Source: a virus | Reading direction: 5' to 3' (one strand) | DNA length: 39,333 nt | Virus record (IMG/VR): IMGVR_UViG_3300005577_000059 | Location: 1 to 39,333 of that record | In this document: positions 14,665-36,444 of the stretch, one piece after another | Position numbering within the stretch: position 1 is the stretch's first letter | Layout: the number at the start of each line of letters is the position of its first letter | Notes under the pieces: model-generated | What the model was told of the DNA's origin: nothing | Database searches by the model: none | Seen by the model: only the letters and a program-made list of their open reading frames with translations | Translations under genes and position numbers: made by a program

Positions 14665-15174
14665 TTTTATCCTTTTCATAAAAATAAATAAAATGATAAC
14701 CCTTTTATTTAAACATAAAAAATGCGACAAAAGCAAGGTTTTTCCCATCTACATAAGAACCATAACTATTTTAGTCGCATTTTCTTCTCAAAAATAAAGT
14801 ACCTATACCATTAAAAATGAGAAAATGCGACAAGATTGTTATCTTACTTATACTTACAAAAATATATAAAAATGCGACAAAAATGCGAGCGTGATTTTTA
14901 CATAAAGGTAGGCTAATGAGGTAGGAAGAGCAGGCAGATTTAAAGATGTGTGTAAATAGCAGATAGAATCGAGGTAGGTTGCTTCTATAGTAACTAGGTT
15001 TTGAGCAGTAATCAATAACTCATTGTCAAGATTTCGACAGGGTCAAAAAACTGACAAAAAATAATTTCAAAATAATTTTTAAATAAACTTGACTTAATAA
15101 AATTTTTAAACTATATTTATTTTATGAGAGTGAGGTCACTTTCTAGGATGAACAAACGCAAAGGAGATGAACTT
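14665..15174. promoter_or_regulatory. Divergent control region between late and early genes
   Basis: A 510-base gene-free stretch between the leftward late operon and the rightward early genes. It holds four copies of the word AAAATGCGAC and a shorter fifth. Forward copies are near 14719, 14822 and 14869, the partial one is at 14879, and an inverted one is at 14774-14783. Read leftwards each forward copy is TTGTCGCATTTT, with a TATA-like hexamer roughly 17-22 bases downstream (TATAAG, TATAGG, TAAAAG). Three AGGTAGG words occur at 14906-14978. A strong rightward promoter lies at 15089-15117. No gene was seen. Confidence 0.6.
15089..15117 (+). promoter_or_regulatory. Sigma70-like early promoter
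   Basis: TTGACT (15089-15094) and TATATT (15112-15117) with exactly 17 bases between, upstream of two plus-strand genes. Each box matches the consensus in five of six positions. The preceding AAATAAACTTGACTTAA is repeated word for word upstream of 29797. Confidence 0.7.
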
Positions 15175-16491: not shown

Positions 16492-17718
16492 GTGCTTTAC
16501 GAACATCAAAAAACAGCTATACGAAAATGTATCGAGAATAAGAGATACGCGTTATATCACGAACAAGGCTTGGGAAAGACGATTTCAGCAATTTTAGCCG
16601 CGGATTATATTTTATCAAAAATGCAATTTGGAAAAAGTGTAATTGTTGTTTGCCCCTCTTTTTTGCAACCAAATTGGGCAAAAGAGGTTGCAAAATGGTC
16701 AAAATTTGAAAGTTTCTACAAAATTTACAGTTACGAAACTTTTTGGAGACTGCCTGTTCCAGCTCGCAAAACAAAAATGATTATCGTCGACGAAGCTCAC
16801 TATATTAAAAATCGTCGAGCAAAGCGCACTGAAGCCGTCGTAAACACATGCATCGGAGCAGAGCGTGTCATTCTTTTGACTGGGACACCAATCGGCAATC
16901 GTAACATTATCGATCTCTACACTCATCTCGTTTGCCTCGATCCAACCAACGCTTACTCAGATTACCGAAACTTCAGACAGCGGTACATGCGAGTAAAGAC
17001 CCATAAATTTCAAAAAGACGAATCACGAAATGAAGATGAATTCTTAAAGATGCTTGCACCAATGTCTGAGCGAAGGCTTAAAGTCGACTGCTTAGACCTC
17101 CCAGAAAAAATCTATCACGAGTTCGGTTGTAAGGGGACTCGAGTTCACCAGGGTCTTCATGTAGCTCATAAAATGCAAGCTCAGGAAGGATTTGGTTTTT
17201 TTATTGAAGATAAATCGACTGGTGAAGTTGTAGAAATGATAGACCCTACTTCAGAAAAACATATTGTTTTGCAAGATTTAATAGACTCAATTCCTTCTAA
17301 CAATCAGATTGTTATCTATGTAGCGTTTAGAAAGTCTATTGAGTTTATTCAACAGTTTTTCTCAACAGAAAAGAATTTATATTTAAAGCCACATGAATTT
17401 CATGGTGATTTAACTTCTAGTCAAAAAGAAAAAGTTTTGACAGATTTCAAAGAAAACAAATTTAGAATACTAATCGCTACAATGCAATCAATGAATGTGG
17501 GAGTCACATTAACAAATTGTAGTGAAGTCATATATTATTCACGTACATTCTCATGTACAGAAAGGGCACAGAGTGAAGATAGATTTCATAGAATCGGCCA
17601 ACGGAATGTTGTTAATTATTATGATATTGTTGCTAGCGGTGTGGATAGAAAAGCATTTGAAATGATTAAACAGAATAAATCTTATGATGAAATCAAAAAG
17701 GAGATAGAGGATGCATGA
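16492..17718 (+). CDS. SNF2-family DNA helicase
   Basis: A 408-residue superfamily 2 helicase of the compact phage SNF2 type. Visible motifs are YEHQ, GLGKT (26-30), DEAH (100-103), LTGTP (129-133), HGDLTSSQK, MNVGVTLT and EDRFHRIGQR (about 362-372). All catalytic residues are in place. Start is GTG at 16492 after GAGGTCTTT. Such helicases accompany DUF2800, DUF2815 and family A polymerase genes in phage replication modules. The last eleven residues, YDEIKKEIEDA, are encoded by a DNA stretch repeated exactly at the end of the 17874 gene and containing the ribosome-binding site of the next gene. Confidence 0.9.
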   Translation: MLYEHQKTAIRKCIENKRYALYHEQGLGKTISAILAADYILSKMQFGKSVIVVCPSFLQPNWAKEVAKWSKFESFYKIYSYETFWRLPVPARKTKMIIVDEAHYIKNRRAKRTEAVVNTCIGAERVILLTGTPIGNRNIIDLYTHLVCLDPTNAYSDYRNFRQRYMRVKTHKFQKDESRNEDEFLKMLAPMSERRLKVDCLDLPEKIYHEFGCKGTRVHQGLHVAHKMQAQEGFGFFIEDKSTGEVVEMIDPTSEKHIVLQDLIDSIPSNNQIVIYVAFRKSIEFIQQFFSTEKNLYLKPHEFHGDLTSSQKEKVLTDFKENKFRILIATMQSMNVGVTLTNCSEVIYYSRTFSCTERAQSEDRFHRIGQRNVVNYYDIVASGVDRKAFEMIKQNKSYDEIKKEIEDA

Positions 17719-18100
17719 TATATGTAACAGATGCTCTAAATGCGGGGATTGGAGGACATATGTTCTTACAAAAGAAAATGCGGCATTTGTGTGGGAACCA
17801 CTTCCAAATAAAAAAGAATATATTATTATAGTTTGTATAGAGTGTAGATACGAAGAAATAAAGGAGATAGAGGATGCAGATTAGAAAGTTTATAGAGCTT
17901 ACTTGTTTAAGGGGAGTTAAATTTTTATTAAATGTTGATGATGTCCATGCTATTTTCCCACAGAGTAATTCAGAAGGGTCTAAAATACTTTTTAAGAGAG
18001 TTGATTTTAAAAGTTTATCTTCTGATTGTGAATTTTATAACTACGAAGTGATGTACGTTCAAGAATCTTATGATGAAATCAAAAAGGAGATAGAGGATGC
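17678..18100 (+). repeat. 37-base perfect direct repeat at two gene ends
   Basis: Copies at 17678-17714 and 18064-18100 are identical. Each encodes the tail SYDEIKKEIEDA-like end of one gene, contains AAAAAGGAG, and includes the ATG of the next gene. The host genes (a helicase and a FlbD-like protein) are otherwise unrelated. Confidence 0.9.
17711..17884 (+). CDS. Small zinc-ribbon protein, copy 1
   Basis: A 57-residue protein starting inside the tail of the helicase gene (ATG after GGAGATAGAGG). It has CNRCSKC near the N-terminus and CIEC at 42-45, a likely zinc ribbon. It is clearly paralogous to the 18537 gene: both share VW..L..KK.YIIIVC..CRYE and end in an IKEIE-type tail. Function unknown; perhaps a nucleic-acid or protein-binding adaptor. 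Confidence 0.7.
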   Translation: MHDICNRCSKCGDWRTYVLTKENAAFVWEPLPNKKEYIIIVCIECRYEEIKEIEDAD

Positions 18101-18107
18101 TGTATGA
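17874..18107 (+). CDS. FlbD-like small protein, copy 1
   Basis: A 77-residue protein with the pattern of FlbD-like small proteins seen in phages: KFIELTCLRGVKFLLNVDDV at the N-terminus and VMYVQESYDEIKKEIE at the C-terminus, with a beta-rich middle. It is paralogous to the 18320 gene. In this family the ESYDEI.K.I end is natural, so the shared tail of neighbouring genes may have originated here. It overlaps the next gene by eleven bases. Confidence 0.65.
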   Translation: MQIRKFIELTCLRGVKFLLNVDDVHAIFPQSNSEGSKILFKRVDFKSLSSDCEFYNYEVMYVQESYDEIKKEIEDAV

Positions 18108-18327
18108 TAAAAACGGTGATAAAACTCAAAAACTATTGAGACATTTTATTATGAATAATTTAAAAGATATTATTCCTACGACTGTAATAAAGGATACTGA
18201 GTTGAGTTTTAGTTTATGTACTCGTTATACAGATAAAAAAGGTGTAAAACAAAAACGTGAAAATTTCTATTACATAGATTTAAGTTTTTTATCTGATGAA
18301 ATTAAAAAGGAGATAGAAAGTGAGTAA
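18097..18327 (+). CDS. Hypothetical protein with EIKKEIE tail
   Basis: A 76-residue protein, Lys-rich, with a beta-like middle (LSFSLCTRYTD, ENFYYIDLSFL). No family recognised. It ends in SDEIKKEIESE, whose DNA carries AAAAAGGAG for the next gene, which begins with GTG. Confidence 0.55.
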   Translation: MLYDKNGDKTQKLLRHFIMNNLKDIIPTTVIKDTELSFSLCTRYTDKKGVKQKRENFYYIDLSFLSDEIKKEIESE

Positions 18328-18547
18328 AAGATTTATAGAGTTAACTAACAAAAAGAGTGGAGATAAAGAATTAATAAATATAAGCAATATCCATTTATTA
18401 ATAGATGAAAAAACACATCGAGTCATTATTACTTGTCTTTTAGATAAGACTAATTTAATTGAGGGGGCCAATCATTTTCTTTATCACAATCATCATGTTT
18501 TAGAAAGTTATTATGAGATTAAAAAGGAGATAGAGAATGACATCTGA
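18320..18547 (+). CDS. FlbD-like small protein, copy 2
   Basis: A 75-residue paralogue of the 17874 gene: KRFIELTNKKSGDKELINIS at the start and HHVLESYYEIKKEIE at the end. Start is GTG at 18320, six bases after AAAAAGGAGA. Together with the two zinc-ribbon genes it forms a duplicated pair in swapped order. Confidence 0.65.
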   Translation: MSKRFIELTNKKSGDKELINISNIHLLIDEKTHRVIITCLLDKTNLIEGANHFLYHNHHVLESYYEIKKEIENDI

Positions 18548-18725
18548 AAAAGGATATGCATGTGATAAATGTGCAAGTTTGAGTACATTTATTCTGACAG
18601 AAGAAAACACAAAAGCAAACTCTAGTATAGTATGGAAGAAATTATCTAGTAAAAAAGACTATATAATTATTGTTTGTAAACATTGTAGATATGAAAAAAT
18701 AAAGGAGATAGAGAGTGCAAGCTAG
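18537..18725 (+). CDS. Small zinc-ribbon protein, copy 2
   Basis: A 62-residue paralogue of the 17711 gene, with CDKC at 9-12 and CKHC at 47-50 and the shared DYIIIVCKHCRYEKIKEIE end. A zinc ribbon is likely from the two CxxC pairs. It starts inside the previous gene's tail. Confidence 0.7.
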   Translation: MTSEKGYACDKCASLSTFILTEENTKANSSIVWKKLSSKKDYIIIVCKHCRYEKIKEIESAS

Positions 18726-18897
18726 TTTTCCATATTCAGAGAAAATTTTACTTCAATTATATAGATGGGAGGAATTTAGTGAAGAGCTTTTAGAAGAATG
18801 CAAGCAACGAAATGCACGAATTCCATACCCTCTTAATGAAATGTGGGAAATACTTAGACAAGAAACTTCTCAGTTATTAGATGAAGATAGGAGGTAG
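18715..18897 (+). CDS. Hypothetical helical protein
   Basis: A 60-residue acidic, helical protein with a GTG start at 18715. The N-terminus is aromatic (FPYSEKILLQLYRWEEF). The end DEDRR comes from the AGGAGG that serves the next gene. No family recognised. Confidence 0.5.
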   Translation: MQASFPYSEKILLQLYRWEEFSEELLEECKQRNARIPYPLNEMWEILRQETSQLLDEDRR

Positions 18898-18900
18898 AGG

Positions 18901-19113
18901 ATGCTAACTGAAAAACAAAATTTAATTTTAACATTAAGATGGGCTGATAATTGTATTGGTAGAATTCTATGGCTGGTAGAAAATAGGAAGAGAATAGGGG
19001 ACCAGGATTATGTTTTTATTGATGATTGTAGAGATAAAATAGAATCGTGTTTATTAGAGATATTAAAGGATGATTATGAAATTAAAAAGGAGATAGAGAA
19101 TGAAATTAGATGA
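18901..19113 (+). CDS. Hypothetical helical protein with EIKKEIE tail
   Basis: A 70-residue helical protein (LILTLRWADNCIGRILWLVE). It ends in YEIKKEIENEIR, another occurrence of the junction tail, and overlaps the next gene by 14 bases. No family recognised. Confidence 0.55.
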   Translation: MLTEKQNLILTLRWADNCIGRILWLVENRKRIGDQDYVFIDDCRDKIESCLLEILKDDYEIKKEIENEIR

Positions 19114-19297
19114 ACATGATTATATTCTTTGTAGAGGGGATCTATATACAATTTTTAGAAATCTATCTACTTTGTTAGAAAGGCTAAAGAAAAATCCTCA
19201 GAGTGTACTTTTATTAAAAAATATTTATAAAGAAAGCGTTTCCCTTCAGAGTTTAATAGAGTCTTTATATAAAAAAGAGGAAGAAAATGACAGATAA
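19100..19297 (+). CDS. Hypothetical helical protein
   Basis: A 65-residue protein, ATG at 19100 after AAAAAGGAGATAGAGA. Helical, with repeated Leu spacing (LSTLLERLKK, LQSLIESLYK). The tail KKEEENDR overlaps the next start. No family recognised. Confidence 0.55.
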   Translation: MKLDEHDYILCRGDLYTIFRNLSTLLERLKKNPQSVLLLKNIYKESVSLQSLIESLYKKEEENDR

Positions 19298-19469
19298 AGA
19301 AAGAGAATTAATTTATAATATTGAGCTGTTTTATGTAAAGTTTGGAGGCTCTTTAGTAGAGCATTATATACCTAAGAGTCAAAAAGAATTAGAGGCTCTT
19401 AGTGTATTTTTAGAAAAATATATGAGACCAGCAATAGATAATTTTAAAAAGGAAATGAATAATGGATAG
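19287..19469 (+). CDS. Hypothetical small protein
   Basis: A 60-residue protein with a helical second half (LEALSVFLEKYMRPAIDNFK). It overlaps both neighbours by about ten bases. The end FKKEMNNG contains the AAAAAGGAA for the next gene. No family recognised. Confidence 0.5.
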   Translation: MTDKERELIYNIELFYVKFGGSLVEHYIPKSQKELEALSVFLEKYMRPAIDNFKKEMNNG

Positions 19470-20067
19470 AGAAAAAGATATCTTAGATTGGTGTAAAAAG
19501 ACTTACGGAGAGTATGAAAAGTATACCGACTGGCACTATTCGACAGAGACATACGTCTATAAATATAAAAAAAGAAACTGGCTATATAGAGGTTTACCTA
19601 ATATGTCTGTGGATGATTTACATAATTTTTGGCCTTCTTCTCAAATACGTTATGAATTTTATCCCTTTGAAGATTTTATCCCCCCAATTATAATTAGTAA
19701 AGAAGAGGATTTCTTTTTAAGTGCAGTTTATTTAGGTGAGCTTGTACATTTTATTCGTATAGATTTAGAAAATAACTATGTTTCTCTTTTTAATATAAAA
19801 GTCAAGTACATTGATGATATGGATAAATTAAATAAAATAGTTAATCTTTCCAGAGAGTACTATGAGAAATATTTTAAAAAAGTAACGTTAGAAACTGTTT
19901 TAAAATATGAGGAAGATGAACGTAAAAAACAAGAAGAAAAAAATCAACAAGCTGTAAGGAGAATGCGGGATGAGATTGAAGTTAGTAGACGAATTAAAAG
20001 ATATGGTGCAATCATACTCTCCTCGTTGCTAATCGGATTAACAGTATATTTAATTTTAATGAGATAA
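19462..20067 (+). CDS. Tail-anchored membrane protein of unknown function
   Basis: A 201-residue protein. About residues 1-130 are soluble and aromatic (NWLYRGLPNM, YEFYPFEDFIPP). About 140-175 form a charged coiled-coil-like helix (KYEEDERKKQEEKNQQ). The last 20 residues are a hydrophobic segment (IILSSLLIGLTVYLILM), so the protein is probably anchored in the inner membrane by its C-terminus. It is much larger than its neighbours. No family recognised. Confidence 0.65.
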   Translation: MDREKDILDWCKKTYGEYEKYTDWHYSTETYVYKYKKRNWLYRGLPNMSVDDLHNFWPSSQIRYEFYPFEDFIPPIIISKEEDFFLSAVYLGELVHFIRIDLENNYVSLFNIKVKYIDDMDKLNKIVNLSREYYEKYFKKVTLETVLKYEEDERKKQEEKNQQAVRRMRDEIEVSRRIKRYGAIILSSLLIGLTVYLILMR

Positions 20068-20080
20068 AAGGAGATAGAGA

Positions 20081-20272
20081 ATGACTCGTGAGGAAAAATT
20101 AATGTTAGTTTATGCTTTAGAGAAAGCTCAGAAATCTTTTATTAATAGAATAATAAGAGAACTTTCTGATGTTAAAATCACTGAATCCATAGGCTTAGTT
20201 ATTGCGAAAATAAATATTGACCTTAAAGAATTAATAGAAGAGGCTACTTTAAAATTATATGAACCAACTTAA
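20081..20272 (+). CDS. Hypothetical small protein
   Basis: A 63-residue helical protein beginning MTREEKLMLVYALEKAQ, preceded by AAAAGGAGATAGAGA at ideal spacing. A similar MTREE start recurs at 30411 and 36687. No family recognised. Confidence 0.55.
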   Translation: MTREEKLMLVYALEKAQKSFINRIIRELSDVKITESIGLVIAKINIDLKELIEEATLKLYEPT

Positions 20273-20351
20273 AAAAACAGCAAAAACTCTAATGGGAGTA
20301 AAACGCAGACCAGAAGATGCTTTTAAAAAGGAGATAGGAAATGAAAAATAA
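20259..20351 (+). pseudogene. Truncated duplicate of the VRR-NUC 5' end
   Basis: A 30-codon frame whose codons for AKTLMGVKRRPEDAFKK match the start of the VRR-NUC gene downstream; 47 bases (20280-20326) are identical to 20564-20610. After the match the frame runs into AAAAAGGAGATAGGAA, the ribosome-binding site of the 20341 gene, and ends. It looks like the stump left when the 20341 gene was inserted with duplication of the target. Confidence 0.75.
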
Positions 20352-20610
20352 AACAATCAGTCTGTTAGAAAATGTGAGAGATACATTAAACGATTTAAAA
20401 AGTCGTCTATACGACAGTGCTACTGGAATGGATGAAGGTGAGTTTGATGATATAAATCTATTAATAAAAGAGTTCGATGGATTTATTGAAGGTTTAAAAG
20501 AAGATTTTAAGGAAATAAGTGATAAGTGATATATGATATATGATAAAAGAGACTAAATCAATGGCAAAAACTCTAATGGGAGTAAAACGCAGACCAGAAG
20601 ATGCTTTTAA
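20280..20610 (+). repeat. 47-base perfect direct repeat flanking the 20341 gene
   Basis: Copies 20280-20326 and 20564-20610 are identical. The spacer holds one complete gene (20341-20529). Recombination between the copies would delete that gene and restore a single VRR-NUC start. Confidence 0.9.
20341..20529 (+). CDS. Hypothetical small protein in inserted cassette
   Basis: A 62-residue helical protein (LLENVRDTLNDLKSRLY, LLIKEFDGFIEGLKEDFKE). Its ribosome-binding site AAAAAGGAGATAGGAA belongs to the end of the truncated VRR-NUC copy. It is bracketed by the 47-base repeat, so it was probably acquired recently. No family recognised. Confidence 0.6.
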   Translation: MKNKTISLLENVRDTLNDLKSRLYDSATGMDEGEFDDINLLIKEFDGFIEGLKEDFKEISDK

Positions 20611-20902
20611 GAAGAAAAAATTAATTCCATTTTTAAAAACCATCAAAGATGGGTTTTTAGAAGAAAGGACTTACTCAAGTGGCTTTTATTCAAATAAGGA
20701 GGGAATTCCTGATGTAGATTTTACTCATCATGGTCAGAGGTATGTTTTTGAAACGAAGAGTAAAACAGGTAAAGCGAGTAAAATACAAAAAATTAGGCAT
20801 GAGGAAATGCGAAGAGCAGGTATTATAGTCATTATTGTTAATGAAAATAATTTTGAAGCTACTAAACAATATTTATTAGAGAACTGTAAGGAGGTAGAAT
20901 GA
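20540..20902 (+). CDS. VRR-NUC domain nuclease
   Basis: A 120-residue nuclease of the VRR-NUC (PD-(D/E)XK) superfamily. Motifs: RRPEDAFKKK at 18-27, GIPDVD with Asp58, VFETKSKTGK with Glu71 and Lys73, and a following helix with Gln83. Small phage VRR-NUC proteins accompany SNF2 helicases and are thought to act on branched or flap DNA in replication. The start at 20540 lacks a clear Shine-Dalgarno; Met at 20561 is an alternative. Its first 47 coding bases are duplicated upstream. Confidence 0.85.
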   Translation: MIKETKSMAKTLMGVKRRPEDAFKKKKLIPFLKTIKDGFLEERTYSSGFYSNKEGIPDVDFTHHGQRYVFETKSKTGKASKIQKIRHEEMRRAGIIVIIVNENNFEATKQYLLENCKEVE

Positions 20903-29702: not shown

Positions 29703-29746
29703 AAAATAAACTTGACTTAAAAATTTGTTTAAGTTAAGTTTATTTT
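29703..29746. promoter_or_regulatory. Near-perfect 18-base palindrome with promoter-like TTGACT
   Basis: Arms 29703-29720 and 29729-29746 pair over 18 bases with one G-T, around an eight-base loop. The left arm contains TTGACT (29712-29717) in a context identical to the early promoter at 15089; the -10 candidate (TAAGTT, 29735-29740) is weak. It is either a regulated promoter with an operator, or an AT-rich terminator after the primase. Confidence 0.55.
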
Positions 29747-35214: not shown

Positions 35215-35792
35215 AATTTAAAGAAGGTGATAAGGTAAGAGTTATTAAAGATATGCAGCTCTCAAATATAATACCACCAAGTTATAGAAGATTTATAATA
35301 GGGGAAACTGGTGTTTTAAGTAAGTCATATTTTAATTTTCCACATTTTATTTTTGAGACCAAAAGAGGAGATTATACAGTTAGAGAAGACGCCTGTGAAG
35401 AATATTTTGAAAAAATAGAGGAGAGTATGAAACTCGAAAAGATAATACCACTTATAAGAGAAAATAAGAAAATTGAATTTCTTGGATTTGATAGAAATGG
35501 TCTCCAAGTGTGGAAAGAGTTAAATTTAAAGCCAGACAGGCCTCGTGATTATTGTTGTGATATTTTAGATATGTCCTTATCAGAATTAATGACATTGGAA
35601 TTTAGAGTTAAAAAAGAAAAAGAATATCAAGCTCTTTATTATTATGTAAGGTGTGATGGGATAAAAATATTTGATACAACATCTAGTTTTTATAAGAGTA
35701 AAGAAGAGTTTTTAGATTCTGCTATGTATAAAGCAATGCCAGGAAGTATTTTTCATAGTTTAATTTTAGAATCAGAAAGGAATGCTGAATGA
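35211..35792 (+). CDS. SH3-like plus DUF2829-like protein
   Basis: A 193-residue protein. The N-terminus FKEGDKVRVIKD with a later GETGVLSK is a KOW/SH3-like pattern. Residues about 74-135 (KIIPLIRENKKIEFLGFD ... LMTLEFRVKKE) have the layout of the DUF2829-like domain proposed at 26711. The C-terminal 55 residues are aromatic and unassigned. Function unknown; possibly a fusion of small phage modules. Confidence 0.5.
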   Translation: MKFKEGDKVRVIKDMQLSNIIPPSYRRFIIGETGVLSKSYFNFPHFIFETKRGDYTVREDACEEYFEKIEESMKLEKIIPLIRENKKIEFLGFDRNGLQVWKELNLKPDRPRDYCCDILDMSLSELMTLEFRVKKEKEYQALYYYVRCDGIKIFDTTSSFYKSKEEFLDSAMYKAMPGSIFHSLILESERNAE

Positions 35793-36067
35793 AAATAGAA
35801 CTAAATAAAGTTTATAGAGATAGACTTAAAAGAGAATGGAAAATTGTTGTTAAGTATGAAACTTATGATCACACAACAGGAAAGACTCGAGTTCGTTGTA
35901 TTTATATAAATAAAGAACAAAATGACTATGGGCCATGTGATGAAAATGGTAAATCTTGGGGAATGGAACACCTAGAGAATTACGAGGACTTGATAGAGTT
36001 AGTTGGCGATGATTTTACCACACAGGAGTTTGATGAATGAAAATAGAACTAAATAAAGTTTATAGAG
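35786..36067 (+). repeat. 34-base perfect direct repeat at two gene starts
   Basis: Copies at 35786-35819 and 36034-36067 include the stop overlap, the ATG and the first nine codons (MKIELNKVYR) of two adjacent genes. This marks a tandem duplication with later divergence, or conversion of the 5' ends. Confidence 0.9.
35789..36040 (+). CDS. Hypothetical protein, tandem paralogue 1
   Basis: An 83-residue protein starting MKIELNKVYRDRLKREWKI and ending near IELVGDDF. It pairs with the next gene, which shares both ends. The pattern resembles small phage domains that begin xIExGxxYxxRxG. Function unknown. Confidence 0.6.
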   Translation: MKIELNKVYRDRLKREWKIVVKYETYDHTTGKTRVRCIYINKEQNDYGPCDENGKSWGMEHLENYEDLIELVGDDFTTQEFDE

Positions 36068-36444
36068 CAAGAAATGGAACACAATGGAAAGTTATCTTTA
36101 TAAAAGAGAGTGAAAATTTAATCGCATGTGTGAATAGAAAACACGATGAGATACATTTTTGGTTTATCTCAGGTTATTACTCTAGGAGTGGTGAAGCTAA
36201 TAATAGAGATTTAGTAGAATTAATTGGCGATGATTTTATTGAAGAGAAAAAACCTAGATATTTTGAATTTGAAGGTTGGATAGGAGAATCCCCCGCTGAA
36301 ACAACGAGTATCTGTCCATATTTTACTTTAAATAAAGTATTTGGTTATGATGTTTCTAGTTTTGTTGATGATGTAACGTTTTTAGATAAGCATAGAAACA
36401 AAACATCAAAATGGAGAGTAACTATGCAGGAGATTATTGAATGA
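36037..36444 (+). CDS. Hypothetical protein, tandem paralogue 2 with extra domain
   Basis: A 135-residue protein. Residues 1-70 repeat the preceding gene's plan (MKIELNKVYRARNGTQWKV ... LVELIGDDF). Residues about 75-135 add a module (FEFEGWIGES ... KWRVTMQEIIE) that recurs at the C-terminus of the 37784 gene (QFEGYLY ... KWKVTMEE). So it appears to be a two-domain mosaic. Confidence 0.6.
   Translation: MKIELNKVYRARNGTQWKVIFIKESENLIACVNRKHDEIHFWFISGYYSRSGEANNRDLVELIGDDFIEEKKPRYFEFEGWIGESPAETTSICPYFTLNKVFGYDVSSFVDDVTFLDKHRNKTSKWRVTMQEIIE

Follow-up and report, generated by a model that had tools for sequence, protein, structure and literature searches.

The DNA analyzed here, a window of 39,333 nucleotides with 33.6% GC, is a fragment of a phage genome in which the beginning of a nuclease gene is present twice, once intact and once as a stump, on either side of a small gene. 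This arrangement is most likely an ordinary scar of illegitimate recombination in a lively array of small genes, a scar that is real, recent and readable. Most small phage genes are without a known origin, and a junction scar as fresh as this one captures a single step in the turnover of such genes; it shows one ordinary route by which such viruses gain or lose small genes.

The duplicated nuclease start

The repeat consists of 47 nt of the plus strand that are identical at 20280-20326 and 20564-20610 (0/47 differences), the two copies lying 284 bp apart. Extended into its flanks, it reaches 51 nt at 98% identity with a single mismatch (20280-20330 versus 20564-20614; self-BLAST E = 6e-18). 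By comparison, the longest exact repeat arising by chance measured 14-18 nt in 20 first-order Markov simulations of the window. Self-comparison places the downstream copy within the intact nuclease gene (20561-20902, plus strand), and the upstream copy, which corresponds to the 5' coding sequence of this gene, forms part of a stump ORF of 30 codons (20259-20351, plus strand). This ORF is composed of seven codons of its own, followed by nuclease codons 2 to 17-18 and by the ribosome-binding site (SD) of the small gene located between the copies, hereafter gene X. It is in frame with ATG 20259, passes through AAAAAGGAGATAGGAA, the SD of the gene starting at 20341, and stops 11 nt into that gene; at the place where the stump carries AAAAAGGAGATAGGAA, the intact nuclease gene reads TTTAAGAAGAAA. 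A previous sequence-only reading had described the first 47 coding bases of the nuclease gene as copied 284 bases upstream in frame. The identity, spacing, coordinates and frame that it gave are confirmed, but the copy spans codons 2 to about 17: the repeat begins at nuclease codon 2, the start codon ATG 20561 was not copied and the stump has ACA (20277-20279) instead. The complete identity of the 47 nt indicates that the event was recent.

Direct repeats may be misassembled, and one contig of the same virus, 3300026078_000096, terminates at 17864 inside a repeat copy (L010 end, 17809-17878), which corresponds either to an assembly break or to a population variant. Nevertheless, a second IMG/VR record, 3300005459_000234 (L003), is 99.98% identical to the window over 13.3 kb and harbors the identical duplication, the two samples being possibly not different. 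Since two nearly identical but separate contigs share this structure, misassembly is unlikely; the repeat is in addition shorter than a typical read. A false repeat created by assembly, the objection which the sequence-only reading had itself raised, is thus largely refuted and retains hardly any probability.

The stump encompasses only the N-terminal lysine-rich part of the nuclease, without any of the PD-ExK residues, and judging from their absence in the predicted product it cannot act as a nuclease. Probably it persists as a neutral remnant; at most it would serve as a short leader that is read through into X. A functional role as such a leader, in which a short ORF overlapping both the upstream gene A (14 nt) and X (11 nt) would couple translation from A to X, appears very improbable. 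The overlaps at both ends do fit the pattern of the array, where the usual overlaps are of 7-17 nt and where the stump ATG covers the 3' end of gene A by 14 nt. However, X owns a strong SD (-8.9 kcal/mol), the SD available to the stump ATG is poorly spaced and the stump displays no sign of conservation.

The nuclease gene and the accessory array

The replication module present in the window encodes an SNF2-type helicase, the nuclease, a DUF2800 protein and a family A DNA polymerase, to which we would add what we take to be a DUF2815-like gene and a VirE-like primase. The interval between the helicase and DUF2800 genes is occupied by many small genes, mostly overlapping, with a median gap of -8 nt. 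The accessory array proper extends from helicase to nuclease (17711-20529, plus strand) and is missing between these genes in three relatives from IMG/VR, L089, L090 and L091 (L089 being equal to L091 here), whose helicases are 55% identical to that of the window. In these relatives helicase, nuclease and DUF2800 genes are adjacent; in L089 they are separated by an 82-nt gap and then joined by a 7-nt overlap. This adjacency in three distant relatives indicates that the small genes of the window, including X, are accessory. If the compact order is ancestral, every array gene between helicase and nuclease would represent a gain in the lineage of the window.

The entire IMG/VR set was searched using as baits the nuclease, its N-terminal pattern, the SD-junction pattern, the helicase, DUF2800, the polymerase and the terminase, and genome contigs were searched with the terminase bait. 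These searches recovered just the same virus, one sister sharing 75% nucleotide identity and distant relatives; the relatives spanning the locus are all distant, with nucleases 32-41% identical. The contig of the sister, G001, which is the closest relative (~75% nucleotide identity), breaks off on either side of precisely this region and contains no match to the nuclease. The same contig bridges window ends 1 and 39333 through ~11 kb absent from the window, which is therefore probably an incomplete circularly permuted genome.

The nuclease gene (phrog_93 endonuclease, 2.4e-8) may alternatively start at 20540. Its alignment with relatives L090 and L091 reveals invariant P50 D51, E64-x-K66 and Q76, the PD...ExK...Q catalytic residues. 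The gene had been designated VRR-NUC. Conservation of these residues and the phrog_93 match agree with this identity, but the window nuclease remained unmatched by PF08774 and its relative L090 scored 18.5 bits, below the cut-off of 23.8; we therefore refer to it as VRR-NUC-like. A single-sequence AlphaFold model of the protein was uninformative (pLDDT 41), and a VRR-NUC-like candidate from a Neisseriaceae bin (L172) turned out to be another gene. The SD of the intact nuclease is poor at either start, -2.3 (20540) and -2.9 (20561) kcal/mol versus about -6 to -12 for most neighbors. Because this weakness is common to all histories of the locus, SD strength is no guide to which copy is ancestral. 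The likeness between the window start MAKT and the L091 start MART was considered as an argument for the native ATG and rejected as decisive, since the alignment requires a 4-residue gap; it may count as weak evidence.

Two small genes of unknown function border the stump. Gene A (20081-20272, plus strand; 63 aa) is an ORF preceded by the SD AAAAGGAGATAGAGA, and gene X (20341-20529, plus strand; 62 aa) is the ORF flanked by both repeat copies. Family searches with both proteins detected no relatives of either. The possibility that X is a tandem duplicate of A was discarded, as the two genes lack similarity although the repeat is identical. The gap from A to X, 68 nt, is the largest of the array, versus 13 nt before A. 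The junction of gene X with its SD, TTAAAAAGGAGATAGGAAATG (20323-20343, plus strand), has its first 15 nt in common with the junctions at 18302, 18519 and 19082. More generally, the junction AAAAAGGAGATAGARRATG recurs at most array genes as far as X; in it, the SD of one gene constitutes the coding 3' end of the preceding gene. Ten such junctions lie between 17697 and 20343, and, with the SD of each following gene encoded in frame, many small genes end alike in Y-x-EIKKEIE or KEIE. Among IMG/VR contigs, only those of this virus contained the pattern GARATYAARAAGGAGATAGARRRTG. The array also contains paralogous pairs in mirrored order, 17711-17884/18537-18725 and 17874-18107/18320-18547 (a Cys-rich pair and an RKFIELT pair).

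A second junction in the array has been duplicated. A block of 37 nt comprising the helicase 3' end, an SD and the next ATG (17678-17714, plus strand) is repeated exactly at 18064-18100 (plus strand), where it forms the 3' end of R1 (17874-18107), a small gene unrelated to the helicase. The helicases of the relatives end with NKSFDDIKKELE and NKSIDEIQAELE, which assigns the repeated tail to the helicase, and the R1 tail matches the helicase tail at 37/40 nt and the tail of its own paralogue R2 at 32/40. The copy carried by R1 is a further recent event at a junction and speaks for recombination recurring at these sites, two events not being proof of a system. We propose tentatively, as a possibility to which we attach limited credence, that the repeated junctions (gene 3' end, SD and next start, with the tail EIKKEIE) serve as portable homology tracts devoid of promoter or recombinase. 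Small genes would thereby be captured, lost or given a shared tail, the stump and the R1 tail corresponding to two recent events. Repeats of this kind offer a simple and testable proposal for gene swaps without dedicated machinery.

Possible histories of the scar

Three histories can be envisaged for the scar, and the weights that we give them are judgements rather than computed likelihoods. The one that we place foremost, with an even chance of being right, is that two closely related phages, in which different small genes preceded one and the same nuclease allele, underwent a single recent crossover of the illegitimate (microhomology) type. In one parent the nuclease would have lain behind A, with ATG 20259 as its start and a 14-nt overlap with A; in the other it would have lain behind X, with its start at ATG 20540 or 20561. 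Recombination would have fused TTAAGAAG, the nuclease lysine codons 17-19 of the first parent, to TTAAAAAG, the beginning of the SD block before X in the second, generating the order A, truncated nuclease start, X and intact nuclease. With the event running in this putative direction, X would be the gene gained.

The right joint lies within TTTTAA(A/G)AAG. The nuclease sequence TTTTAAGAAG and the SD junctions at 18302, 18519, 19082 and 20323 (TTAAAAAGGAGATAG) share the 8-nt TTAARAAG in the same codon phase, and the short shared sequence characteristic of a microhomology joint is thus found both in the nuclease codons and at the SD junctions of X and other genes. The left edge of the repeat coincides with the nuclease gene start, and no significant similarity indicative of hidden homology was detected upstream of the repeat (p 0.10-0.28), as expected if one gene sits behind two different neighbors. 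A single crossover between an A-nuclease and an X-nuclease arrangement accounts for both edges without coincidence, as well as for the in-frame ATG 20259 overlapping A. Exchange between the repeat copies would keep the nuclease frame open from this ATG, and the second recent duplication, the 37-nt helicase tail on R1, indicates that recombination at these junctions recurs. Against the crossover stand three observations. The IMG/VR baits, for which only distant relatives span the locus, found neither a phage in which a single nuclease start immediately follows A nor one with X and the nuclease without the stump; the nuclease of the first parent would have had ACA in place of the usual-start ATG, with only a poorly spaced SD; and deleting the 54-nt stump yields a tidy A-to-X junction, TTAAAAAGGAGATAGGAAATG, with a 14-nt gap.

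This last observation leads to the main rival of the crossover, a local copy, which we consider possible and appreciably less probable. A and X would already have been neighbors when some 47 nt from the 5' end of the nuclease were copied 284 bp upstream into their junction, either through polymerase template switching at A-rich microhomology or through tandem duplication of X together with the nuclease start and subsequent loss of the first X. The newcomer would then be the stump and not X. The sequence left upon removal of the 54 nt (stump and AAAAACA filler), CTTAAAAAGGAGATAGGAAATG, is a canonical stop/SD junction whose 14-nt gap compares with 13 nt before A, the present A-to-X gap exceeds all others in the array and the copy lacks the nuclease start codon, all of which speak for a local copy. 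On the other hand, it leaves the 7-nt filler unaccounted for and demands two coincidences, a beginning exactly at codon 2 and an in-frame ATG overlapping A. Insertion of an SD-X cassette into a single nuclease start behind A with duplication of a 47-bp target, the mechanism favored by the sequence-only reading, seems rather improbable. The repeat copies do flank X, and the SD of X is of the repeated junction type. Transposase target duplications, however, usually measure 2-14 bp, far below the 47 bp of this direct repeat, which moreover begins at nuclease codon 2; and the last three bases of the cassette would have to be an in-frame ATG placed exactly at the nuclease start. X is accompanied by no transposase or endonuclease and matches no family, including recombinases, and a repeat search around it found no terminal inverted repeats.

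The earlier interpretation was therefore partly right: its observation stands and its stated mechanism does not. X does belong to an accessory array that three relatives lack, A-rich lysine codons are indeed joined to a repeated-type SD, and the event happened recently. What lacks support is the 47-bp target duplication, since its left edge coincides precisely with the start codon of the nuclease, a codon absent from the stump, and since a crossover or a local copy produces the same anatomy. To call the structure direct evidence of how small genes are gained was too strong, the data being silent on whether X or the stump came last.

Comparison with known systems and other repeats of the window

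Morons are accessory genes located between core phage genes and equipped with their own promoter and terminator. X resembles them as an accessory insertion among core genes and differs from them as a member of an overlapping gene array. Phage mosaicism through illegitimate recombination is already well described. In mycobacteriophages, illegitimate recombination joins unrelated sequences at or near gene boundaries and creates new neighbors (PMC3203893). The window shares with this tailed-phage mosaicism joints located at gene boundaries and differs in that the joint has left part of a gene start duplicated in readable form. The nearest known gene-start repeat is the SAS of Cluster K mycobacteriophages, a 13-bp motif that partly pairs with 16S rRNA, precedes many translation starts at short distance within the non-structural half of the genome and has no demonstrated role in recombination (PMC3203893). 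The repeats of the window are likewise short and close to starts. In contrast to SAS, they combine a strong SD with the coding 3' end of the gene that comes before, and their longer exact copies point to recombination; the SAS consensus GGGATAGGAGCCC was not encountered upstream of starts in the window, where the junctions read AAAAAGGAGATAGARRATG. The PeSLs, or mobile regulatory cassettes, of T4-type phages are repeated intergenic units thought to shuffle small genes (Arbiol 2010; Comeau 2014; both as cited in PMC4503421). PeSLs carry a promoter and a terminator, whereas the window junctions carry an SD only.

Several other repeats were noticed in the window. The pair 35783/36031 was rejected as a second scar: it belongs to tandem paralogous genes (35789-36040 and 36037-36444) that both start with MKIELNKVYR and of which the sister phage has a single copy (L004:11485-11868). 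A near-palindromic intergenic element occurs twice, at 29703-29746 and 15081-15124, as a 44-nt match of 88-93% that is kept in the sister (L004:6875-6919). Finally, the gene-poor stretch preceding the helicase contains nested inverted repeats (91-93%) at 15942-15993/16269-16320 and 16030-16071/16124-16164.
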